A stretch of 64,000 bases of DNA. It comes from Denitromonas iodatirespirans (GTDB lineage Bacteria; Pseudomonadota; Gammaproteobacteria; Burkholderiales; Rhodocyclaceae). Shown piece by piece: positions 9,732-29,074 of the stretch. The stretch is taken from the NCBI RefSeq assembly GCF_018524365.1, contig NZ_JAEKFT010000006.1, forward strand, positions 124,001 to 188,000, read 5' to 3'. The notes below the pieces were generated by a model, which saw only the letters and a list, made by a program, of their open reading frames with translations, did no database searches and was not told the origin of the DNA. A program made the position numbers and the translations under genes. Within the stretch, counting starts at the first letter, position 1, and every line of letters starts with the position of its first letter.

Positions 9732-11696
9732 TCAGGCGGCCGTCTTTGCGGCCTGCGGGGCGAAGGTCTTCGCCTCTTCGATCTTCAGGTCGGCAGCGAT
9801 CTTGCCCTGACGACCATCCTCGTATTTCACTTCGGTCTCGATGTGCTGCTCGGTCTTGCCCGAGTACAGCGCATCGATCAGCACCGCATAGCGTTCCGAG
9901 ACGAACTTGCGACGCACCTTGCGGGTGCGGGTCAGCTCGCCGTCGTCGGCGTCCAGCTCCTTGTGCAGGATCAGGAAGCGCTTGATCTGCGAGTCGGCCA
10001 TCATCGGGTCGGCCGCCAGTTGTGCGTTGATCTCCTCCACGCACTCCTTGATCAGCTGCATCACCATCGGCTGGGCGGCCAGATCGGTATAGCCCGAGTA
10101 GGCCAGGCCGCGGCGCTCGACATAGTTGCCCACGGCTTCGAGGTCGATGTTGATGAAGGCGGTGACGAAGTCGCGCTCGTTGCCGAAGGCCACGGCTTCC
10201 TTGACGTGCTGGAAGAACTTGAGCTTGTTCTCGATGTAGTTGGGCGCAAAGATGCTGCCGCTGTTGAGCTTGCCCACGTCCTTGGCGCGATCGATGATCT
10301 TCAGGTGGCCGTCGTCATCGAAGAAGCCGGCGTCGCCGGTGAGGAAGTAGCCGTCCTCGTTGAGCGACTCGGCGGTCGCATCCGGGCGCTTGTAGTAGGC
10401 CTTGAGCAGCATCGGGCCCTTGACCAGGATCTCGCCGTTCTCGGCCAGCTTGACCTCCACGCCCGGCGCCGGCTTGCCCACCGAATCGAGCTTGATCTGG
10501 CCGTCCGGCTGCAGGCACACATAGGCGCAGGTTTCGGTCTGGCCATAGAGCTGCTTGAGGTTGATGCCGATCGAGCGATAGAAGCGGAACAGGTCCGGCC
10601 CGATCGCCGCGCCGGCGGTGTAGGCCACGCGGATGCGCGAGAAGCCCAGCACGTTCTTGAGCGGGCCGTAGACCAGCAGGTTGCCCAGCCAGTACTGGAA
10701 GCGATCGGCGGTCGACACCGGCAGCCCGTCGAGGATCTCGGCGCCGCAGCGCTTGGCCACCTCCATGAAGTGCCCGAAGATCTTGCGCTTGATCCAGCTG
10801 GCGTCTTCCATGCGGATCAACACCGTGGTGAGCAGGTTCTCGAACACCCTCGGCGGGGCGAAATAGTAGGTGGGGCCGATCTCGCGCAGATCGGTCATCA
10901 CCGTCTCGCCCGATTCCGGGCAGTTGATGGTGAAGCCCGACACCATCGCCTGGGCATAGGAGAACAGGTGGTCGCCCACCCAGGCCATCGGCAGGTAGGA
11001 GAGGATGTCCTCGCTCTCGGTGAGCTTGTCGAACTGGCAGCCGCCCTTGGCCGACTGGATGAAGGCGTCGTGCGTCTGGCACACGCCCTTCGGCTTGCCG
11101 GTGGTGCCCGAGGTGTACAGCATCACCGACACATCGTCCGGCTGGCCCTTGCGGATCTCGCCGTCGAGGAAGTCCGGCTGCGCCTTGTCATGCGCCGTGC
11201 CCATCGCCTGCAACTCGTCCAGACCGAGCAGGAAGGTCTCGGCGTAGTGGCGCATGCCGCGCGGATCGTCGTAGATCACATGCTCGAGCAGCGGTGCCTG
11301 CTCGCGGATCTCGAGCATCTTGTCGACCTGCTCCTGATCCTCGACCACCACGAACTTGATCTCGGCATCCTGCAGCACATAGGCCATTTCCTCGGCCACC
11401 GCGTCCTGGTACATCATCACCGGGATGCCGCCCAGGCACTGGCAGGCCGCCACCGACCAGTACAAGCGCGGCCGGTTGTCGCCGATGATGCCGAGACGGT
11501 CGCCGCGCTTGAAGCCCAGCTCGGCCAGACCGCAGGCGATGGCGCGCACGTTCTGCGCCACTTCCGCCCAGCTATAGGTCTGCCAGATGCCGTATTCCTT
11601 CTCGCGCATCGCCGGCCGGTTCGGCCGCTGTTGAGCATGCTGCATCAACAGGCGCGGAAATGTGTTCAGTTCATCCTGCCCACGGGGGTCCGACAT
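9732..11696 (-). CDS. Long-chain-type acyl-CoA synthetase / AMP-dependent ligase
   Basis: 654-residue adenylate-forming CoA ligase at the head of the transporter cluster. Motifs seen: P-loop-like YTSGTTGKPKGV, YGQTETCAY, the GEILVKGPMLLKAYYK block, and YFLTGDAGFFDDDGHLKIIDR followed by KDVGKLNSGSIFAPNYIEN. Size and the FxLTGD spacing resemble bacterial long-chain fatty acyl-CoA ligases (FAA1-like) often found next to HAAT transporters. The ATG at 11696 has AGGAGGAG upstream; an in-frame TTG further upstream was rejected. It would trap the imported acid as a CoA thioester; the substrate (fatty, aromatic or dicarboxylic) cannot be fixed from sequence. Confidence 0.9.
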   Translation of the reverse strand: MSDPRGQDELNTFPRLLMQHAQQRPNRPAMREKEYGIWQTYSWAEVAQNVRAIACGLAELGFKRGDRLGIIGDNRPRLYWSVAACQCLGGIPVMMYQDAVAEEMAYVLQDAEIKFVVVEDQEQVDKMLEIREQAPLLEHVIYDDPRGMRHYAETFLLGLDELQAMGTAHDKAQPDFLDGEIRKGQPDDVSVMLYTSGTTGKPKGVCQTHDAFIQSAKGGCQFDKLTESEDILSYLPMAWVGDHLFSYAQAMVSGFTINCPESGETVMTDLREIGPTYYFAPPRVFENLLTTVLIRMEDASWIKRKIFGHFMEVAKRCGAEILDGLPVSTADRFQYWLGNLLVYGPLKNVLGFSRIRVAYTAGAAIGPDLFRFYRSIGINLKQLYGQTETCAYVCLQPDGQIKLDSVGKPAPGVEVKLAENGEILVKGPMLLKAYYKRPDATAESLNEDGYFLTGDAGFFDDDGHLKIIDRAKDVGKLNSGSIFAPNYIENKLKFFQHVKEAVAFGNERDFVTAFINIDLEAVGNYVERRGLAYSGYTDLAAQPMVMQLIKECVEEINAQLAADPMMADSQIKRFLILHKELDADDGELTRTRKVRRKFVSERYAVLIDALYSGKTEQHIETEVKYEDGRQGKIAADLKIEEAKTFAPQAAKTAA

Positions 11697-11805
11697 GCCC
11701 GTCTCCTCCTTTGGTGTCTCTTGTCTTTTTGCCGCGGCGCCGTGGTGTTGTTGGCGTCCGGGGGGCCGGGGGCCCTTTTCGAGGCTGGAGTCTCGCAGCG
11801 CATGT

Positions 11806-11848
11806 TTGCGCAACTATTTTCAGAATGTACGCAATTGTGACAATTGCG
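11806..11848. promoter_or_regulatory. Candidate operator: palindrome upstream of the ligase/transporter operon
   Basis: Perfect 19-base odd palindrome CGCAATTGTGACAATTGCG at 11830-11848, with a separate palindromic TTGCGCAA at 11806-11813. They lie in the 235-base gap between the divergent ligase operon (minus) and the BrkB-like gene (plus). A weak minus-strand -35 (TTGTCA) falls inside the palindrome. A dyad of this size at a divergent promoter is typical of a repressor site; the regulator is not identified. Confidence 0.45.
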
Positions 11849-11931
11849 CCCCGCCGTCACGACAGCTGCCACACGGCATACGCAAGCGGGTTAAAGTAGG
11901 CACTCCATCCGCCCGACCGACGACGACGCCC

Positions 11932-12927
11932 GTGACCCGCCTCACCCGTTTTCTTCGCTACGCCCTGGTGCCCTGGCGCGCCGCGCGCAAATGGGGCGAC
12001 GACCGCTGCGCCACCTATGCCGCCGCGCTCGCCTACTACTCCGCCTTCTCGCTGGCCCCGGTGCTGGTCATCGCCGTTTCGGTGGCCGGGCTGATCTTCG
12101 GCGCCGACACCGCCAGCGAGCGCATCGTCGGCGAACTCGAAGCGCTCATCGGCGCCGACGGCGCCCGCCTCATCGCCCGCCTAGTCACCGCCAGCCAGCA
12201 ATCCGGCCAGGGCGGACTCGCCGCGGCGGTCAGCACGCTCGTCACGCTGATCGGCGCCACCGGCCTGTTCGTCCAGATGGGCCACGCCTTCGAAGCCGTC
12301 TTCGGCCATCCGTCCCGGGATCGCAGCGCCTGGATGAAGCAACTCATCGGCCGGCTGCGCGGGCTCACCGTGGTCATCGGCATCGGCTTCCTGCTGATGG
12401 TCTCGCTGGTCGCCAGCGCCGCCATCCTGGCCGTGGGCGAATACGCCACGCGCGGCATCCAGGCGCTGCTGTGGCTCGCCACCGCGCTGCAGATCGGCAT
12501 CTCGCTGGCCCTGCAAAGCAGCATGATCGGCATCATCTACAAGGTATTGGTGCCCACCCGGCTGTCGACCCGCGCCCTGATGATCGGCGCCGTGCTCACC
12601 GCCGTCCTGTTCGAGGTCGGCAAATGGGCCATCGGCCTGTACCTGGGCCGCAGCAACACCGCCGCCACCTTCGGCCCGGCCGGCTCGCTCGCCATCGTGC
12701 TGCTGTGGGTGTACTACGTGTCGCTGATCCTGCTGTATGGCGCTGAGATCACCTTCCAGCTCAACCGCATCGACCATGTCGGCGACCGGCATTTCCGGCG
12801 GCAGAAGAAACAGAAAAAGGCGGCCGCACCGCGAGAGGCGCCGGAGGCGCTAGTCGAGACGCCCGCCGCCGAGGCCACCCCCGCCCTGCTCAAACCCCCC
12901 GCCACCGAAGGGGCGCCCAGCCGGTAG
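11932..12927 (+). CDS. YihY/BrkB family inner-membrane protein
   Basis: 331-residue polytopic protein of the YihY/BrkB (former RNase BN) family. Conserved N-terminal ALAYYSAFSLAPVLVIAVSVAGLIFG and C-terminal FGPAGSLAIVLLWVYYVSLILLYGAEITF are both present, with about six membrane segments between. The C-terminus is a basic then Ala/Pro/Glu-rich cytoplasmic tail (FRRQKKQKKAAAPREAPEAL). The start is taken as GTG at 11932, since the frame upstream has no plausible start near the conserved region. Function unknown in the family; transport or envelope roles have been suggested. Confidence 0.88.
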   Translation: MTRLTRFLRYALVPWRAARKWGDDRCATYAAALAYYSAFSLAPVLVIAVSVAGLIFGADTASERIVGELEALIGADGARLIARLVTASQQSGQGGLAAAVSTLVTLIGATGLFVQMGHAFEAVFGHPSRDRSAWMKQLIGRLRGLTVVIGIGFLLMVSLVASAAILAVGEYATRGIQALLWLATALQIGISLALQSSMIGIIYKVLVPTRLSTRALMIGAVLTAVLFEVGKWAIGLYLGRSNTAATFGPAGSLAIVLLWVYYVSLILLYGAEITFQLNRIDHVGDRHFRRQKKQKKAAAPREAPEALVETPAAEATPALLKPPATEGAPSR

Positions 12928-13013
12928 CCCGGTCGAGGGCCGAAGGCCCGACACCGGGATCACGGCCCACGCAACCACCGACCCCGGATGTCGCGGCGCG
13001 CGACCCGGGCTAC
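12924..13013. repeat. REP-like inverted repeat (GTAGCCCGG family)
   Basis: GTAGCCCGG at 12924-12932 is repeated inverted as CCGGGCTAC at 13005-13013, with further complementary blocks between (GGGCCGAAGGCCC, CACCGGG). The left arm starts at the stop codon of the BrkB-like gene. The same type of GTAGCCCGG...CCGGGCTACG unit recurs at 30127 and 30427, so it is a dispersed REP-like element of this genome. Confidence 0.6.
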
Positions 13014-13071
13014 GCCCCGATTCAAACCGCCGACCGGCAAAGAGCCGCCTGCATAACAAGGCGCGACGCCC

Positions 13072-13542
13072 TCAACTTCTCGGCGACTCGAAACACCGCG
13101 CCCGCGCGATCTCGTAGTCGAGACGCACATCCTTCGCACCACGCATCGCCGCGGCAAACGCAGCATCTTCCGTCGACTCAGTCGCCGAGCGCGCCATCAC
13201 AGCCTGCCGCGACGCCTGCATCGCCCGCACCAACTGCTCGCCCACCCGTGCCGCACAGCCCGACGCCGGCACCCGGGCCACCGTCTGTTCGGCCTCGGCC
13301 ATTTCGCGGATCGGGCCGGCCGCCGCCTCGCCCGGCGCCTTCAGTGCGGCATCGAGGGCGCGTGCCCAGCGCCGATCCGCGCGGTCGTACTCGGCAAAGG
13401 CCGCCTGCACCCGCGCCATGGCCTGGCGCTTGTCGTAGATGTCGTAGCCGGTCCGCCCCATGAACGCCAGCACGAAGAGCACCACGCCGATCAGCACCCA
13501 CGGTATCCGGCGTCGCTTCGGCACGCCTGCTCGATCTGTCAT
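13072..13542 (-). CDS. Membrane-anchored hypothetical protein
   Basis: 156-residue protein with a basic N-terminus (MTDRAGVPKRRR), one transmembrane helix (WVLIGVVLFVLAFMG, about residues 14-29) and an alpha-helical, Ala-rich periplasmic part with two cysteines (ASGCAARVGEQ and ARARCFES). I do not recognise a family. The start at 13542 is preferred because AGGG lies about 5 bases upstream; other in-frame ATGs are at 13545 and 13560. It is divergent from the thioredoxin-like gene. Confidence 0.6.
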   Translation of the reverse strand: MTDRAGVPKRRRIPWVLIGVVLFVLAFMGRTGYDIYDKRQAMARVQAAFAEYDRADRRWARALDAALKAPGEAAAGPIREMAEAEQTVARVPASGCAARVGEQLVRAMQASRQAVMARSATESTEDAAFAAAMRGAKDVRLDYEIARARCFESPRS

Positions 13543-13690
13543 CATTGCCCTCATGGCCATCCATTCGCCGACAGTCTGACAGCATGTCGGCCGGCGGCGG
13601 GCAAAAGGACGGTTTCCGGCGCGGTGCAAGATCGTCCGACGGCGCCCGGATGGCGCTGCGCTGCATCCCCTCGGCCCCCAGGAGACCCGC

Positions 13691-21118: not shown

Positions 21119-22225
21119 ATGGCCACGCTGGCCCGTCGCCGCCGCGGCATCGACTTCTGGCCCGGCTTTGTCGACGCGCTCGCCGCGTTGCTGATGGTGA
21201 TGGTCTTCGTCATCCTGATCTTCACCATCGGCCAGTTCGTGCTCACCGATGCGGTCAGCGGGCGCGACCGCGCACTGGCTCGGCTCAACGCCGAGCTGGC
21301 GCAACTGGCCGACCAACTGAGCCTGGAGACCGATGCCCGGCGCCAGACCGAGATCCGCCTCGGCGAACTGGCCGCCTCGCTCGAGCGCAGCGACGCCGCC
21401 CGCCAGGCGCTCGATGCGCGCCTGCAATCGAGCGAGACCGCACGCAGCGCTGCCGAAAGCGAAGCAGCCCGGCTGGCCGCCGATATCGCCGCCCTGCAAC
21501 GCCTCAAGGCCGAGCTCGAAGCCGAAGCCGCGCGCCTGGCCAGCGAGCTGGACACCACCGGTACCGCGCTCAAGCAAAAGACCGAACTGTCCGAACGCTC
21601 GATCGCCCAGGTCGAGCTGCTCAACCGCCAGCTCGCCGCCCTGCGCAGCCAGCTCGAACAGCTCAACGAAGCGCTCGGCGCCGCCGAGCAGGCGGCCCGC
21701 GACAAGGATCTGAAGATCGAGGAACTGGGCCAGAAGCTCAACGTGGCGCTGGCCAGCCGGGTGCAGGAGCTGGCGCGTTACCGCTCGGAATTCTTCGGCC
21801 GCCTGCGCGCGGTACTCGGCCAGCGCGAGGACGTGCAGATCGTCGGCGACCGCTTCGTGTTCGCCAGCGAGGTGTTGTTCGACAGCGCCTCGGCCGAGGT
21901 CAGCGAGGCCGGCAAGACCCAGCTCGCGCGCCTGGCCGGCGCACTCAAGGACATCGCCCGCGAGATCCCCGCCGACCTGCCCTGGGTGCTGCAGGTGGAC
22001 GGCCACACCGACCGTCGGCCGATCTCGACCGCGCGCTTCCCCTCCAACTGGGAGCTGTCGACCGCGCGTGCGCTGTCGATCGTCAAATACCTGCGCGCCC
22101 AGGGCATCGACCCGCAGCGCCTGGCCGCCACCGGCTATGGCGAATTCCACCCCATCGACCCGCGCAACACCGACGCCGCCTACGCCAAGAACCGGCGCAT
22201 CGAGCTCAAGCTGACGAGTCGCTGA
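21119..22225 (+). CDS. MotB/OmpA-like peptidoglycan-anchored partner with long coiled coil
   Basis: 368-residue protein. It has one N-terminal membrane helix (DALAALLMVMVFVILIF, about residues 19-36) carrying Asp19 in FVDALAALL, the place of the proton-binding Asp of MotB. A coiled coil rich in Ala, Glu, Leu and Arg runs through about residues 50-225. An OmpA-like domain follows at about 250-365 (FVFASEVLFDSASAEVSEAGK, VDGHTDRRPIS, NWELSTARALSIVKYL). With the upstream MotA/ExbB-like gene it forms a probable force-generating or proton-conducting complex anchored to peptidoglycan. The 3' end overlaps the convergent AraC gene by 20 bases. Confidence 0.85.
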   Translation: MATLARRRRGIDFWPGFVDALAALLMVMVFVILIFTIGQFVLTDAVSGRDRALARLNAELAQLADQLSLETDARRQTEIRLGELAASLERSDAARQALDARLQSSETARSAAESEAARLAADIAALQRLKAELEAEAARLASELDTTGTALKQKTELSERSIAQVELLNRQLAALRSQLEQLNEALGAAEQAARDKDLKIEELGQKLNVALASRVQELARYRSEFFGRLRAVLGQREDVQIVGDRFVFASEVLFDSASAEVSEAGKTQLARLAGALKDIAREIPADLPWVLQVDGHTDRRPISTARFPSNWELSTARALSIVKYLRAQGIDPQRLAATGYGEFHPIDPRNTDAAYAKNRRIELKLTSR

Positions 22226-23054
22226 GCGCCGCCTCGCCGCGCACCTGCGCCAGCCATTCGCGCGGCGCACAACCGATGCGCGCGCGGAAGGCCCGCGCCA
22301 GCGCATTCGGGCTGCCGTAGCCCACCTGGTCGGCCACCACCGCCACCGGCCGCCCCTGCTTGAGCAGGGTGCAGCTCACGTTCATGCGCCACTCGGCCAG
22401 GTAGTCGCCCGGCGTGGCGCCCACCGTGTCGCGAAAGGCCGCCGCAAAGCGCGCGCGCGACATGCCCGCCCGCTCGGCCAGCGACGCCAGCGTCCACGGC
22501 GCCTGCGGCGCGTCATGCATGGCGGCGATGGCGCGCGCCAGTTTCGGATCAGCCAGGCCGGCCAGCAGCCCGGTGGGCGCCAGGCGCCGGTCCATCAGGT
22601 AGCGCAGCAACTGGATCAGCAGCAATTCGCACAGGCGGTCGATGGCCGCCTGACGGCCGCAATGGTCGGCCAAGGCCTCAGCCACCAGCAGGTCCAGCGT
22701 CGGCCCCAGCCCCGGCACCTCGGCCAACGGGATCAGCAGCACCGGCGGCAGCGCCATGGCCAGCGGGTTGCCCGCCGAGGCCCCCAGCTCCACCTCGGCG
22801 CAGAACAGCTCGGCCGTCTCGCTCGGCGGCACCAGCAGGCGATGCGGCGCCACGCGCGGATAGAACAGCACGCTCGGCTCACTGATCTGCAGATCGTCAT
22901 GAATCGCGGCACGCGCCGTGACCGGCCCACGTTTGACCAGATGCACATAGCCATGCGGCGCGGCGAAGTGGTGATGGCCGCACAGCGGGCCGCTGTGGAA
23001 CATGCGTGCCGACAGCGAATAGTGCTGGAGCAGGCCGGCAAGTCGATCGGTCAT
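22206..23054 (-). CDS. AraC family transcriptional regulator (cupin_6 type)
   Basis: 282-residue regulator. The N-terminal cupin-like domain (SGPLCGHHHFAAPHGYVHLVKRGPV, SVLFYPRVAPHRL) is of the AraC cupin_6 type. Two C-terminal HTH motifs follow (WTLASLAERAGMSRARFAAAFRDTVGATPGDYL; PVAVVADQVGYGSPNALARAFRARIG). The ATG at 23054 is preferred, with GAGG upstream, over a TTG at 23069. It is divergent from an AhpD-like gene over a 118-base gap holding an inverted repeat, the usual layout for a regulator of its neighbour. Confidence 0.92.
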   Translation of the reverse strand: MTDRLAGLLQHYSLSARMFHSGPLCGHHHFAAPHGYVHLVKRGPVTARAAIHDDLQISEPSVLFYPRVAPHRLLVPPSETAELFCAEVELGASAGNPLAMALPPVLLIPLAEVPGLGPTLDLLVAEALADHCGRQAAIDRLCELLLIQLLRYLMDRRLAPTGLLAGLADPKLARAIAAMHDAPQAPWTLASLAERAGMSRARFAAAFRDTVGATPGDYLAEWRMNVSCTLLKQGRPVAVVADQVGYGSPNALARAFRARIGCAPREWLAQVRGEAALSDSSA

Positions 23055-23086
23055 GGGCGCCTCACTCAAGACTTTGGGTTACGAAT

Positions 23087-23172: not shown

Positions 23173-23706
23173 ATGCCCCATATCGCCCCCCTGTCCATCG
23201 ACACCGCCGACGCCACCACCGCCGCCACGCTCAAGGCCGTCAAGGCCAAGCTCGGCATGGTGCCCAACCTGTTCGCCACCCTGGCCCATGCCCCCGCCGC
23301 GCTCAATGGCTACCTCGGCCTGTCCGAAACCCTCGGCACCGGCCGCCTGAGCGCCGCCCAGCGCGAAATCGTCGCCCTCGCCGCCGGCCAGGCCAACACC
23401 TGCCAGTACTGCCTGAGCGCCCACACCCTGATCGGCAAGGGCGCCGGGCTGTCCGAAGATGCCATCGTCGCTGCCCGCAGCGGCCGCGGCAGCAACCCGC
23501 TCAATGCCGCCATCGCCGGCTTCGCCCGTGCCCTGGTCGAGGACCGCGGCCGCGTATCCGCCGAGGCCATGGCCGGCTACCGCCAGGCCGGCCTCGACGA
23601 CAGCCTGATCCTCGAAGTGGTGGCCAACGTCGCCCTCAATGTGCTCACCAACTACACCAACCATGTCGCCGACACCGAGGTGGACTTCCCGGTGGTGGCG
23701 GTCTGA
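23173..23706 (+). CDS. Carboxymuconolactone decarboxylase / AhpD-like family protein
   Basis: 177-residue AhpD-fold protein. The redox motif CQYCLSAH (CxxC followed by His) lies in ANTCQYCLSAHTLIGKGAGLS, the signature of the peroxidase-related AhpD-like group. The surrounding pattern LSAAQREIVALAAGQ and the C-terminal NVLTNYTNHVADTEVDFP are conserved in this family. No signal peptide. A Shine-Dalgarno GGAG lies before the ATG. Probably controlled by the divergent AraC regulator. It may act with the following cytochrome P460 gene in stress defence, but no direct link is shown. Confidence 0.9.
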   Translation: MPHIAPLSIDTADATTAATLKAVKAKLGMVPNLFATLAHAPAALNGYLGLSETLGTGRLSAAQREIVALAAGQANTCQYCLSAHTLIGKGAGLSEDAIVAARSGRGSNPLNAAIAGFARALVEDRGRVSAEAMAGYRQAGLDDSLILEVVANVALNVLTNYTNHVADTEVDFPVVAV

Positions 23707-23734: not shown

Positions 23735-24283
23735 ATGAAACCCGCATTCTCCCGCGCGCTGCTCGCCAGCGCCCTCGCCCTGCCCCTGCTCGCCATGGCA
23801 GGCGATTTCTCGCCCTATGTGAACGGCCAGGGCCACATCAGCCGCCCCACCGAGGTGCGCGACCGCTTCGTGCATCTGGGTTCGTGGGCGGTGCTGGATG
23901 AAAAGTCGCCGGCCCGCGGCCTGCACGATGTGTACACCGAAAAGACCTCGGCCGAGCACTACCGCAAGACCGGGCAATTCCCCGACGGCGCCACCCTGGT
24001 GAAAGAAATCCGCAAGCTGGAGACCGGCGCCATGACTACCGGTGACCCGGTGGTATGGGGTTCGGACGCCGCGGTATGGTTCGTGATGGTCAAGGACGCC
24101 AAAGGCCGCTTCTCCGGCAACCCGCTGTGGGCCGACGGCTGGGGCTGGGCCTTATTCAAGGCCGACGCCCCCGCCACCAACGCCGCCGTCAGCTACGAGG
24201 CGGACTGCAAGGGCTGCCATGTACCGGCGGCCAAGACCGACCGGGTCTTCATCCAGGGCTATCCGACCCTGACGGCCCGCTGA
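23735..24283 (+). CDS. Cytochrome P460 family periplasmic c-type haem protein
   Basis: 182-residue exported protein. Signal peptide at residues 1-22 (RALLASALALPLLAMAGD). The mature part matches the cytochrome P460 family (VRDRFVHLGSWAVLDEKSPARGLHDVYTEK; FPDGATLVKEIRKLETG; GWGWALFKAD). A C-terminal haem c site CKGCH is in YEADCKGCHVPAAKTD. P460 proteins oxidise hydroxylamine or bind NO in ammonia oxidisers; homologues in other bacteria are thought to act in nitrogen-oxide detoxification. It follows the AhpD-like gene by 28 bases with AGAAGGAGA as ribosome site. Confidence 0.88.
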   Translation: MKPAFSRALLASALALPLLAMAGDFSPYVNGQGHISRPTEVRDRFVHLGSWAVLDEKSPARGLHDVYTEKTSAEHYRKTGQFPDGATLVKEIRKLETGAMTTGDPVVWGSDAAVWFVMVKDAKGRFSGNPLWADGWGWALFKADAPATNAAVSYEADCKGCHVPAAKTDRVFIQGYPTLTAR

Positions 24284-25776: not shown

Positions 25777-26048
25777 CTAGGGTCTGTTGACAATCATTCG
25801 GGGGATCGCGTTGTGTCCAAATGGCTTCGCGACAAGGCGCAGGAGGCAGCCAAGGGTGGCCCCCTTGGCAACGAGTGCAACGCAGTGGCGAAGCCATTTG
25901 GACACAACCCTGCGGGCGCGGGCCTGTTTGGCCGCATGGCGGCGTTGCGCCTCCTTGGCTGGGGGCCACCCAGACTGCGTCGGCGCGCCTTGCCCTGCGA
26001 CCAAACAGGCCCGCGCGCGACCCCCGAATGATTGTCAACAGACCCTAG
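25777..26048. mobile_element. MITE-like element with long terminal inverted repeats and internal hairpins
   Basis: Non-coding element with perfect 24-bp terminal inverted repeats, beginning GGTCTGTTGACAATCATTCG at 25781 and mirrored to end at 26044. It is flanked on both sides by CTAG (25777-25780, 26045-26048), which looks like a 4-bp target duplication. Inside are two more perfect inverted repeats: 21 bp (25810-25830 with 25888-25908, core TGTCCAAATGGCTTCGC) and 16 bp (25916-25931 with 26001-26016, core GGGCCTGTTTGG). No open reading frame has a credible start. It has the form of a miniature inverted-repeat element; CTAG-type 4-bp duplications are typical of some IS5-family transposases (inference). 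Confidence 0.75.
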
Positions 26049-26087: not shown

Positions 26088-27725
26088 TCAGTCGGGATGG
26101 AAGTTCAGCAGGCGCCGCTTGTTGGGGATGCGCACATAGCGGCCGCTCATCTCGATCAGCCCGGCCTCGCTCAATTGCTGGAAGGTGCGCGACAAAGTCG
26201 GCGGGGTGAGGTTGAGGTAGGAGGCGATGACCTGCTTTTGCGCCGGCAGCACGGCTTCGAGCACGCCGGCGGCGTTGATGCGGGCATGCTGCAGCAGATG
26301 GTCGATGACGCGTTCCATGCCGGTCTGCAAGGCATAGGCTTCGAGATCCCAGGCCACGTCCTGGTAGCGCTTGCCGAAATGCGCCACCAGCGCCCGCGAG
26401 AACGGCAGGCTGCGCGTCAGCAAGTCCTGCAGCGGGGCCAGCGGAATGAGCAGCAGCACGGTGGCCGCCAGGCTTTGCGCCAGCACGGTGTGGTTCACGC
26501 CGGTCAAGGCGTCGATTTCGCCGAACACCTGCATCGGCCCGGCAAAGCCCATCACCTTTTCCGCGCCGCGGGCATTCGACACCGCCAGCTTCACCTGGCC
26601 ACTGATCACCAGGTACACGCCAAGCGGCGCATCCAGCTTGTGGAACACCACCTTGCCGCGGGGCACGCGGATCAGGCGCGCGGCGGCGTCGAGCTGATCG
26701 AGCTCCTCTTTTGGCAGATCGTGGAACAGCGCATGGCGCGACAGCACCGAGCCGACGACCGCCGGCTGCTCGACCGGCACCACCTCGCGCCCCGCGATCG
26801 GCGCCGCCTCGGGGCGCAACAACACCAGCAGCACCGTCTGCCCGTGCAGCGCCAGATGCGTCACCCGGGCGCGCACGCTCTGTTCCTTGCCCTCGGCGTC
26901 GCGACAGCGCAACGGCCCCTCGAAGCGCCCGGCCATCAACACTTCGCCGACCAGCACCGGGAAGCGCGCCACCTCGTCGGCACTGAGCTGATCGGCCAGG
27001 GCATGACGGCACAGGATGTCCGCCGGCTGGCCGAAGAAGTCCGCAGCCGCCGCGTTGGCATGCAGAATCGTGGCCGGCATCAGGGCCGCATCGAGCGACA
27101 CGATCAGCGCCGGCACCTCGCCATGGGTGCACAGATCGACCACGCCGGCCTCGCTGGCCAGCAAGGCCGCGCTGTGGCGCGCCACCACGGCCGAAAAATC
27201 CGGCTCGGCATCGGCCAGCTGCGACGCCGCCAGGGCCTGGGCGCGCGCCTCCCAACTGCCGAACGCATCGCCCGCGCCGACCGCCCCCGGCGCCCCGCCC
27301 GGCGAGGTGGCGGCCATGGCGGCTCGCAGCGAACGGGCAATCACCTGGTCTTCACCCTGGATGTGGTCGATCAGCCAGTCGCCCAGAAACATCAGCAGGC
27401 GCTGGCCATCGAGCACCCCGTCCTCGCCCAGCGCCTCGACCATGTCGCCCACCTGCGCCAGGAAACGCGCATGGCCTTCGTGATGGGCATCGGTCTGTCG
27501 CGCCTCCAGCCCGCACAAGGCCATCAAGGCCTCTTCGGTACTGAAGTGCACCTGCGCGTAATCGGTCAGATAGCCGAGCAGCAGGCGCACCTCGTCCGCC
27601 GACAGCTCGGGCGCCTGGGCCAGCTTGGCCGCCGTGGCATTGACCAGCTCGACCAGCCCGCGATGCTGCTGGTCGACCACGTCGATGTCGGTTTTCAGGG
27701 AATCGTTCCAGGCCACAATCTGCAT
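26088..27725 (-). CDS. Bacteriohemerythrin-PAS-CRP/FNR fusion transcriptional regulator
   Basis: 545-residue fusion. Residues 1-130 are a bacteriohemerythrin with all seven di-iron ligands visible (His21, His60, Glu64, His81, His85, His121, Asp126; motifs DQQHRGL, HFSTEE, HHEGH, HIQGED). About residues 195-315 form a PAS-like domain (MPATILHANAAAADFFGQPADIL). About 325-445 are a cyclic-nucleotide-binding-type CRP domain (FHDLPKEELDQLDAAARLIRVPRGKVVF). About 465-540 are the CRP/FNR HTH (QKQVIASYLNLTPPTLSRTFQQL) with PPTLSR as recognition helix. Oxygen or NO binding at the di-iron site probably controls DNA binding. A perfect TTGAT-N4-ATCAA box lies 75-88 bases upstream of the start. The fusion is unusual. 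Confidence 0.9.
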   Translation of the reverse strand: MQIVAWNDSLKTDIDVVDQQHRGLVELVNATAAKLAQAPELSADEVRLLLGYLTDYAQVHFSTEEALMALCGLEARQTDAHHEGHARFLAQVGDMVEALGEDGVLDGQRLLMFLGDWLIDHIQGEDQVIARSLRAAMAATSPGGAPGAVGAGDAFGSWEARAQALAASQLADAEPDFSAVVARHSAALLASEAGVVDLCTHGEVPALIVSLDAALMPATILHANAAAADFFGQPADILCRHALADQLSADEVARFPVLVGEVLMAGRFEGPLRCRDAEGKEQSVRARVTHLALHGQTVLLVLLRPEAAPIAGREVVPVEQPAVVGSVLSRHALFHDLPKEELDQLDAAARLIRVPRGKVVFHKLDAPLGVYLVISGQVKLAVSNARGAEKVMGFAGPMQVFGEIDALTGVNHTVLAQSLAATVLLLIPLAPLQDLLTRSLPFSRALVAHFGKRYQDVAWDLEAYALQTGMERVIDHLLQHARINAAGVLEAVLPAQKQVIASYLNLTPPTLSRTFQQLSEAGLIEMSGRYVRIPNKRRLLNFHPD

Positions 27726-27799
27726 GTTTCGCTACCTCGGACGCCACCGGTGGCGCTGCGCATCAGCCCTCGATTGTCCGGAACGGCTCCGCAGGCGTG

Positions 27800-27813
27800 T
27801 TGATGGAAATCAA
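27800..27813. promoter_or_regulatory. FNR/DNR-type box TTGATGGAAATCAA
   Basis: Exact match to the FNR/ANR/DNR consensus TTGAT-N4-ATCAA in the 203-base divergent region between the hemerythrin-CRP regulator (start 27725) and the lysozyme-like gene (start 27929). The position suits autoregulation or control of either gene by an FNR-type protein. Confidence 0.7.
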
Positions 27814-27928
27814 TTGCCCCCGCGCAAAGCCCGTCGCCACAGGCGTTTTTCCTTTCAAAACGGCAAGGCCGACTCGCCGGCGAGCGCCGTCTACACTGAG
27901 GCCTATACACCGGCTGCGAGGAGACGCC

Positions 27929-29074
27929 ATGACGCTCGGATTGAAGTACGACAACGACTACCTGGTCGGCGGCCCCAAGCGCGCCTGGGTCACCCCCAAC
28001 TTCCGCCTCGCCGAATACACCCGCGCCGACGGCAGCGTCCGCATCCATCGCGAACTGGTCGGCGCCGTCCAGCAGCTGCGCCACGCGCTGGGGCGCAGCG
28101 TCGACATCGCCTCGCTGGCACCCGCCGACGGTCTGGGCCAGGGGTTGGACGGCCGCTTCGTGTGGGTCGAGGCCGGCGATCCGGCCACGGTGGCCAACGC
28201 AGCCGAGCGCCTGGCCCGCGAGGGCAGCTTCGCGCGCATCGAGGCCCACGGCCCGCGCGTCTATCTCGAAATGCCCGACCCGGACCACCTGCCGCCGCTG
28301 CCGGCCGAAAACGCGCTGGCGCGCGCCATCGAAGTCACCGCCGCCTTCGAAACCTCGGGCGACCCCTATCTGCAGGTGACCGGCAATTTCGACGGCGCGG
28401 GGCTCTCGTTCGGGCCGATCCAGGTGAATTTCGGCACCGGCACGCTGCAGGAGATGTTCCGCCGTTTCGAAGCGCGCGACGCCGCCGCACTGCGCCGCGC
28501 CTTCGGCCCGCGCTGGCCGGCCTGGCAGGCCGTGATGGCCCTGCCCTCGCGCCGCAAGCAGGTCGAATGGGCCGACGAACTCAGCCGTGGGCGCAACAAA
28601 GCCGACTTCGAACCGGCCTGGAAGGCAGCGCTGCAGGCGGTCGGCAACACACCGGCCTTCCGCGACGAAACCCTGCGCTACGCCTACGATGTGTATGGCC
28701 GCAAGCTCATCGCCGCGCTGTCATGGCTCGACGGCGTCTGCCCGATCCCCATCCAAAATTTCCGCTGCCTGGCCGCGCTCTACGACCTGTGCGTGCAGCA
28801 GGGCAGCCTCAACAAGGCGCATGACGCCATCCGCCGACGCATCGCGGACGAATCGCCCGACGACGAATTCCACCTCACCCGCATCGCCGTCGAAGAGCGC
28901 GGCCGCAAGGCCAACGCGCAGTGGCGCGCCGACTGCATCAGCCGCCGCCTGTGCATCCTCGAACGCGAACCGGTCGCAGTCAGCGAAGCCGGCCAGCGCG
29001 CCCAGCGCGACAACCCCAACCTCTACCTGCTGCGCAACGCGCCGGTGCGGCAGATGGAACGGTATTTGTTGTGA
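27929..29074 (+). CDS. Lysozyme-like fold protein, putative peptidoglycan hydrolase
   Basis: 381-residue protein with two parts. Residues 1-115 (WVTPNFRLAEYTRADGSVRIHRELVGAVQQLRHALGRSV, DGRFVWVEAGDP, RVYLEMPDPDHLPP) resemble an M15-type D-Ala-D-Ala peptidase-like module. The second part begins ALARAIEVTAAFETSGDPYLQVTGNFDGAGLSFGPIQVNFGTGTLQ, with a Glu in FETS and GLSFGPIQ that look like the active region of lysozyme/chitosanase-like enzymes. There is no signal peptide. The start at 27929 has GAGGAGA upstream. Family assignment is by pattern only. It is divergent from the hemerythrin-CRP regulator. Confidence 0.7.
   Translation: MTLGLKYDNDYLVGGPKRAWVTPNFRLAEYTRADGSVRIHRELVGAVQQLRHALGRSVDIASLAPADGLGQGLDGRFVWVEAGDPATVANAAERLAREGSFARIEAHGPRVYLEMPDPDHLPPLPAENALARAIEVTAAFETSGDPYLQVTGNFDGAGLSFGPIQVNFGTGTLQEMFRRFEARDAAALRRAFGPRWPAWQAVMALPSRRKQVEWADELSRGRNKADFEPAWKAALQAVGNTPAFRDETLRYAYDVYGRKLIAALSWLDGVCPIPIQNFRCLAALYDLCVQQGSLNKAHDAIRRRIADESPDDEFHLTRIAVEERGRKANAQWRADCISRRLCILEREPVAVSEAGQRAQRDNPNLYLLRNAPVRQMERYLL

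Follow-up and report, generated by a model that had tools for sequence, protein, structure and literature searches.

The window analysed here is a 64,000-nucleotide stretch of the genome of Denitromonas iodatirespirans. Its minus strand carries, at 26088..27725, a gene for a 545-residue regulator (ATG at 27725, stop codon at 26088–26090) in which a bacteriohemerythrin domain (Hr), a PAS domain and a CRP/FNR-type regulator follow one another in a single polypeptide. A 568-residue open reading frame mirrors the gene on the plus strand (26097–27803) and was rejected, since the domain matches and the homologues belong to the minus-strand reading. A frameshift or assembly fusion was likewise rejected because the frame is open in all 18 aligned genes, which come from 17 genomes, including four single-contig assemblies.

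Domain architecture of the regulator

Pfam matched the window protein with Hemerythrin at residues 13–130 (PF01814; 45.5 bits against a cut-off of 25.3), cNMP_binding at 353–438 (49.7 against 27.5) and HTH_Crp_2 at 471–540 (50.5 against 27). The last two place the protein in the CRP/FNR superfamily, and both were matched at E≤0.01 in 18/18 aligned fusions. The NCBIfam bacteriohemerythrin model NF033749 matched the N terminus with a score of 85.2, just over its cut-off of 84, so that automatic naming may hide the regulator half. In the full-length structure model (18 sequences; mean pLDDT 82.5, pTM 0.79) a four-helix bundle is followed by a low-confidence linker (residues 141–172), a helix, the PAS domain, a second linker (residues 307–323) and a CRP fold with a long C-helix and a winged helix. 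The order of hemerythrin, PAS and CRP/FNR parts proposed by the sequence-only reading is thus borne out by Pfam, NCBIfam, the structure model and the 18 aligned members.

The bacteriohemerythrin domain (residues 1–140; 27306..27725, minus strand) has the expected fold: NF033749 and PF01814 score over their cut-offs and the model contains four helices, at residues 15–37, 43–71, 75–98 and 107–140. Its seven iron ligands (H21, H60, E64, H81, H85, H121 and D126) follow the HxxxE, HxxxH, HxxxxD order of O2-binding-type bacteriohemerythrins and line up with those of DcrH-Hr. Each ligand is identical in 18/18 aligned members, including the most distant, which are 39–42% identical to the window protein. 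By its ligand set the fusion therefore has an intact O2-binding-type bacteriohemerythrin domain with a predicted di-iron site. The earlier claim of an intact seven-ligand hemerythrin holds, and no degenerate copy occurs among the 18 aligned members.

The linker leads into a helix (residues 177–200; 27126..27197, minus strand; from the model) that runs up to the PAS domain and that we read as a signalling helix; two relatives (L047 and L048) carry a ERTAELNASEERF-type stretch at this position. The PAS domain (residues 203–304; 26814..27119, minus strand) scores below the Pfam cut-off in the window copy (PAS_4, 17.7 against 23.1). We nevertheless assign the segment to the PAS fold because PAS_4 is matched at E≤0.01 in 16/18 aligned members, PAS_9 exceeds its cut-off in three (L047, L048 and L013; E=3.8e-13 in L047), and the segment, modelled alone with a mean pLDDT of 83.7, matches PAS structures (3mjq, E=1.1e-6). 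Across the 18 aligned members, the PAS domain contains no invariant His or Cys, His290 being present in 16/18 and Cys274 in 14/18.

The regulator half comprises a CRP-type beta-roll sensory domain (residues 324–438; 26412..26756; Pfam, structure comparison and alignment), a long CRP C-helix (residues 440–466; 26328..26408; model and alignment to 3dkw) and a winged helix-turn-helix (residues 469–545; 26091..26321; Pfam and model) with its recognition helix at residues 508–520, all on the minus strand. Foldseek matches of the CRP fold model include GlxR, mycobacterial CRP, FNR and DNR. The modelled CRP part lies nearer to ligand-bound CRPs than to apo DNR, which we do not take as evidence of its state.

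Classical sensor sites of the superfamily are missing from the window protein. FNR-type cysteines for a 4Fe-4S cluster are absent, residues 324–545 containing no Cys at all; the CRP parts of the other aligned members have between 0 and 4. One copy (L040, from G140) stands apart with four, the others having 0–3. The Arg-Ser pair that forms the cAMP-pocket motif of CRP is found in residues 400–420 of neither the window protein nor 15 other members, and the near-copies L043 and L044 have an Arg-Ser at 417–418, past the invariant Ala416. In DNR, His139 is assigned a role as heme ligand (PMC8510549). Its equivalent in the window protein, within an ungapped stretch of the alignment to 3dkw, is Gln455. 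A His occupies this position in 12/18 fusions (lost in 6/18) against 63/67 non-fused relatives (lost in 4/67), the latter being matched CRP segments of more than 150 residues taken from 70 candidate loci that were picked by similarity, with four identical pairs among them. With no Cys in its CRP part, no Arg-Ser at 400–420 and Gln at 455, the window protein has the hemerythrin domain as its only recognisable cofactor site. Relatives may hold a second cofactor, given the heme-position His in 12/18, the 0–4 Cys of their CRP parts and PAS His290 in 16/18.

DNR and FNR share a recognition-helix motif, Glu-x-x-Ser-Arg, whose Glu contacts the half-site in FNR and CRP. The window protein departs from it, with Pro at position 509, though S512 and R513 stay. 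Position 509 is Glu in 67/67 non-fused relatives examined and, among the 18 fusions, Pro in 12, Ala in three, Ser in one and Glu in two; all 85 CRP parts retain S512 and R513. The PPTLSR noted earlier from the sequence is correctly read, and the altered helix proves to be a lineage-wide change (16/18 fusions against 0/67 non-fused relatives). Since the Glu that is lost makes the half-site contact in FNR and CRP, the DNA code of the fusions is likely to have been changed or loosened.

Distribution, ancestry and gene neighbourhood

A first sample of 61 genomes, including that of the window, contained the fusion in seven, all of the same genus: the genome itself, five with matches at 75–76% over the whole length, and G002, in which two matched stretches lie within one 624-codon frame. 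Three of nine other same-genus genomes searched lack it (two of these three are 86% complete), so the fusion is dispensable. A wider sample of the family yielded it in 18/297 genomes and 5/68 genera (E≤1e-48), with two copies in G083 and a copy split over two contigs in G247. Named records with the fusion are Denitromonas halophila, D. ohlonensis, Pseudothauera nasutitermitis, P. rhizosphaerae and P. lacus; further records are a Zoogloeaceae isolate and Azoarcus, Thauera, Rhodocyclaceae and other metagenome-assembled genomes. Scanning named records with two peptide patterns gave 29 loci: 13 with the fusion at full length, two that belong to a single split copy and 14 that match one part only. 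Beyond the family, profile A2 found full-length matches at E≤1e-55 in 2/399 genomes of the order sample (the window's own and G083) and 1/369 of the class sample (the window's own), where scoring was confined to the top three candidates of each genome and other domain orders would escape. Plasmid-borne spread was sought by tblastn, with zero matches at E≤1e-20 among 72,556 plasmid records. On these sequence matches the Hr–PAS–CRP fusion is a real but sparse family. The protein with the three-part order claimed earlier is thus no one-off: it belongs to a conserved family whose members, as described below, fall into one tree group.

The 85 CRP parts were placed in a maximum-likelihood tree, rooted at the midpoint and containing no characterised DNR. 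The 18 fusions form a single group there (100/99), next to L067, a DNR-like protein encoded by the metagenome-assembled genome STA_53. STA_53 also has two fusions, both of which retain the most typical PAS domain and the recognition Glu. DNR (3dkw) is the best PDB sequence match both of the fusion and of a regulator encoded elsewhere in the same genome as the window (L002, E=1.1e-35), to which the CRP part of the window protein is 40% identical. None of the NCBIfam DNR models matched L002, and 'DNR-like' is used here as a label taken from the PDB match. The tree is consistent with a single origin, and the simplest story would be that an Hr–helix–PAS front end was joined once to a DNR-like regulator. 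Hemerythrin front ends occur in the same bacterial family on other outputs as well, namely a histidine kinase (L156), a GGDEF enzyme (L157) and a PAS-kinase (L158).

Gene order offers a further view of this relationship. The window's own genome (L147/L148) and the L067 locus (JAQTNA010000013.1, 10082–14019) share the order FNR, DNR-like protein, a frame with no Pfam match and an HHE hemerythrin. In the L063 locus (11692–13648) the fusion occupies the DNR-like slot, directly before the same Pfam-less frame and HHE hemerythrin gene, and the 21.6 kb of this locus yielded no DNR-like gene alongside it. In L057 some 7.4 kb separate the same two genes from the fusion; the pair is thus common to L057, L063 and L067. 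The Pfam-less frame of this cluster spans 431–512 residues and, judged by eye, has the look of a membrane-bound protein.

No widely common neighbour was found across the fusion loci with mechanical ORF calls. The five Denitromonas loci have syntenic neighbours; L056, L059 and L065 have a common upstream stretch, which in L056 includes an ABC-type binding protein and a DAO-family oxidoreductase; and L061 and L064 have some frames in common. Proteins that we read as GGDEF/EAL-type are encoded within 10 kb of the fusion in L056, L059, L065 and L066, and at 36–38 kb of the window. The copy in G002 (L013) is preceded by a radical-SAM/SPASM gene, in our reading pqqE.

Several other features surround the gene in the window. 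A divergent gene for 381 residues (27929–29071) adjoins the regulator; it is kept in the window and in L052–L055 and has no Pfam match at E≤0.001. A cytochrome P460 family gene lies at 23735–24280, near a carboxymuconolactone-decarboxylase-family gene (23173–23703) and an AraC-type regulator (22209–23069). Just past the 3′ end of the regulator gene is a MITE-like element of 272 bp (25777–26048), bounded by perfect terminal inverted repeats of 28 bp and with palindromes in its interior. It has 18 matching pieces in the genome, and four places, itself included, cover 232–272 of its bases at 79–100% identity.

An FNR/DNR-type box upstream of the gene

The region upstream of the gene (27726–27928) contains a perfect FNR/DNR-type palindrome, TTGATTTCCATCAA, at 27800..27813 on the minus strand, 75–88 bp upstream of the ATG. 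A −10-like hexamer, GACAAT (27773..27778, minus strand), follows 21 nt downstream of the palindrome, at class II spacing. A perfect TTGA[TC]N4[AG]TCAA occurs in 15 of the 21 loci with upstream sequence (seven from Denitromonas), starting 85–139 bp before the ATG, whereas dinucleotide shuffles of the same 160-bp upstream stretches gave a mean of 0.026 loci with a box and a maximum of two in 500. The six loci that lack it are L060, L062, L063, L064 and the near-copies L043 and L044. When the match to TATAAT was scored at offsets of 5–44 nt after the box, 21 and 22 nt were best (means of 2.40 and 2.93 of 6; next best 1.53), which puts the centre of the box near −41.5, as in class II promoters. 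Because the upstream neighbours of Denitromonas and of the other loci differ, the box goes with the fusion gene.

FNR recognises this same type of palindrome, and the genome encodes an FNR (L006, over the NCBIfam cut-off). DNR of denitrifying Pseudomonas is described as binding a motif that resembles the FNR box TTGATnnnnATCAA (PMC1274295). Judged by sequence, the FNR and the DNR-like protein of this genome are equally good candidates to bind the 27800–27813 box, beside the fusion itself.

The genome holds 32 such boxes, against two for a reversed control. Ten recognisable-looking frames beside these boxes were picked for an NCBIfam scan. Seven scored over cut-off, as NirJ, NosZ, CcoN, HemN, UbiU, a NiFe-hydrogenase small subunit and NapF; one was a superoxide dismutase match under cut-off (311.5 against 348); and two, L148 among them, had no NCBIfam match at E≤1e-30. 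The gene at L148 1052–1501, itself beside an FNR/DNR-type box, belongs to the hemerythrin family (PF01814, E=4.1e-24). For a stand-alone bacteriohemerythrin of the same genome (L005), a box likewise lies 57 bp from where its frame starts (L081). Elsewhere, two boxes (L085/L086, G000:C2:291186-291285) have their starts separated by 86 bp and lie some 13 kb away from that of the hydrogenase small-subunit gene (L084). In Accumulibacter, active FNR goes with a rise of gene clusters in which a hemerythrin gene is listed alongside cco, hemN, nar, nos and uspA (PMC6446978).

The box is present in 11/12 members with Pro at position 509 and in 1/6 others (hand count; Fisher p=0.004; the rows are related). 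This association hints at binding of the fusion to its own promoter, and weakly so because the rows are related. Both Glu-bearing copies are without a box, which disfavours a simple version of self-regulation.

Candidate mechanism and place among hemerythrin and gas-sensing regulators

Hemerythrin domains joined to other outputs are well represented among bacterial proteins. DcrH is a chemotaxis receptor with a C-terminal hemerythrin, and its hemerythrin domain is the closest PDB sequence match to that of the fusion (2avk, E=1.8e-8). The proteins L156, L157 and L158, which were found with the Hr–PAS part of L048, have the same kind of front end, but their output is a histidine kinase or GGDEF domain where the fusion has CRP/FNR. 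In VcBhr-DGC and Bhr-HD-GYP, hemerythrin is described as controlling the output of a c-di-GMP enzyme (PMC8846402). The fusion would resemble them in using hemerythrin as the sensor of an output domain, and differs in that its output is a transcription factor rather than an enzyme and a PAS domain lies between. Two further proteins combine a hemerythrin-type domain with PAS in accounts that describe no CRP/FNR part: Bhr-66 of Methylomonas denitrificans (PMC12607906) and the YtfE-like Ddes_1165 of Desulfovibrio (PMC5701242). Long O2-binding hemerythrins came in 56 architectures in a 2016 survey, those with MCP and GGDEF parts being the most frequent (PMC4919030); the terms 'crp', 'cnmp', 'pas' and 'hth' are absent from the text of this survey, whose full architecture list is a figure. 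In searches of an open-access paper library, which leave that figure aside, we found no hemerythrin protein with a CRP/FNR output, and the earlier impression that the three-part order had no described example stands. Kinase, GGDEF, HD-GYP and chemotaxis outputs of hemerythrins are already known; the transcription-factor output would be new.

Among CRP/FNR proteins the fusion resembles DNR and L002, its CRP part sharing a tree group with L002 and finding its best PDB match in DNR. It differs from them by the added hemerythrin and PAS domains, by the loss of the recognition Glu in 16/18 members and, in the window protein, by the missing heme His. With the FNR of its own genome (L006) it shares superfamily and palindrome type, but the CRP part of the window protein is free of Cys.

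On balance, we think that the fusion is probably a one-component regulator, induced by FNR or DNR, whose hemerythrin site senses O2 or else NO or redox state, and we hold this reading with modest confidence. Low O2, through FNR, or NO, perhaps through the DNR-like protein, would induce the fusion gene from the box near −41.5, with self-control possible. The protein would dimerise through its CRP C-helix. Its hemerythrin site, diferrous while O2 is low, would act as the sensor: upon a shift of conditions, O2 most likely, or possibly NO or plain redox chemistry, would oxidise or ligate it. A shift in the hemerythrin bundle could then be relayed along the helix and the PAS domain to the CRP core, and the change in the core would alter DNA binding at target sites of the fusion's own, which are probably altered. 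The low-oxygen and denitrification gene programme would in this way receive feedback on O2 or NO from the fusion. A sensory role is supported by the kinase, GGDEF enzyme and PAS-kinase that take their input from hemerythrin front ends within the same bacterial family.

A different signal would change this picture. If the fusion were an NO sensor for denitrification, its hemerythrin would bind NO, alone or with a heme in the CRP part as in DNR, to give a second, hemerythrin-assisted DNR. In favour of this, DNR is the solved structure nearest to the CRP part, the tree places that part with DNR-like proteins, denitrification genes are part of the box and genome context, a His sits at the DNR heme position in 12/18 fusions, and in L063 the fusion lies in the DNR-like slot. 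Yet the window protein has Gln455 at that position, the loss of the recognition Glu in 16/18 argues against a plain second DNR acting at identical sites, and the intact hemerythrin ligands cannot tell O2 from NO; we regard this reading as rather unlikely. Somewhat less likely again is a redox or iron sensor, in which the hemerythrin would report its ferrous or ferric state, or iron supply, without an O2 adduct. The Bhr-HD-GYP of Ferrovum is described as a precedent (PMC8846402), and the ligand set reads the same for an O2 adduct and for outer redox chemistry.

Other explanations would deny the hemerythrin its sensory role or the protein its full function. The hemerythrin could be a local O2 store or shield while the CRP/PAS part senses something else: stand-alone bacteriohemerythrins are described as binding and scavenging O2 (PMC12607906), and the genome itself has one under the same type of box. 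We consider this improbable, as here the domain is part of a single polypeptide with a relay-type helix and PAS, the window protein offers no second cofactor site that we can recognise, and the PAS domain is without invariant His or Cys. Finally, the gene could belong to the FNR regulon by its box and encode a decaying, weakly active copy, as the sparse distribution (18/297) and the changed recognition helix might suggest. Against decay stand the open frame in 18 aligned genes and the hemerythrin ligands, S512 and R513 kept in 18/18, which leave it scarcely credible.

To our knowledge, the bacterial transcription factors that sense gases directly use Fe-S clusters, heme or mononuclear iron. 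That related bacteria conserve the Hr–CRP fusion points to a transcription factor with non-heme iron as its means of reading O2 or NO. Whether the whole account holds is, in our estimate, a little short of an even chance: the fusion would be the first known transcription factor to read O2 (or NO) by a non-heme di-iron hemerythrin, with a single DNR-like origin, induction from an FNR-type box, loss of the Glu as a departure from the parental DNA code, and a place as a feedback or feed-forward layer. If so, a conserved Hr–CRP fusion would add di-iron O2 chemistry to the gas-sensing transcription factors, in bacteria equipped with denitrification genes. Such a fusion would also provide a simple DNA-binding read-out for asking how hemerythrin signals, and a way to ask how a fused sensor lets an old sensor site and DNA code drift.
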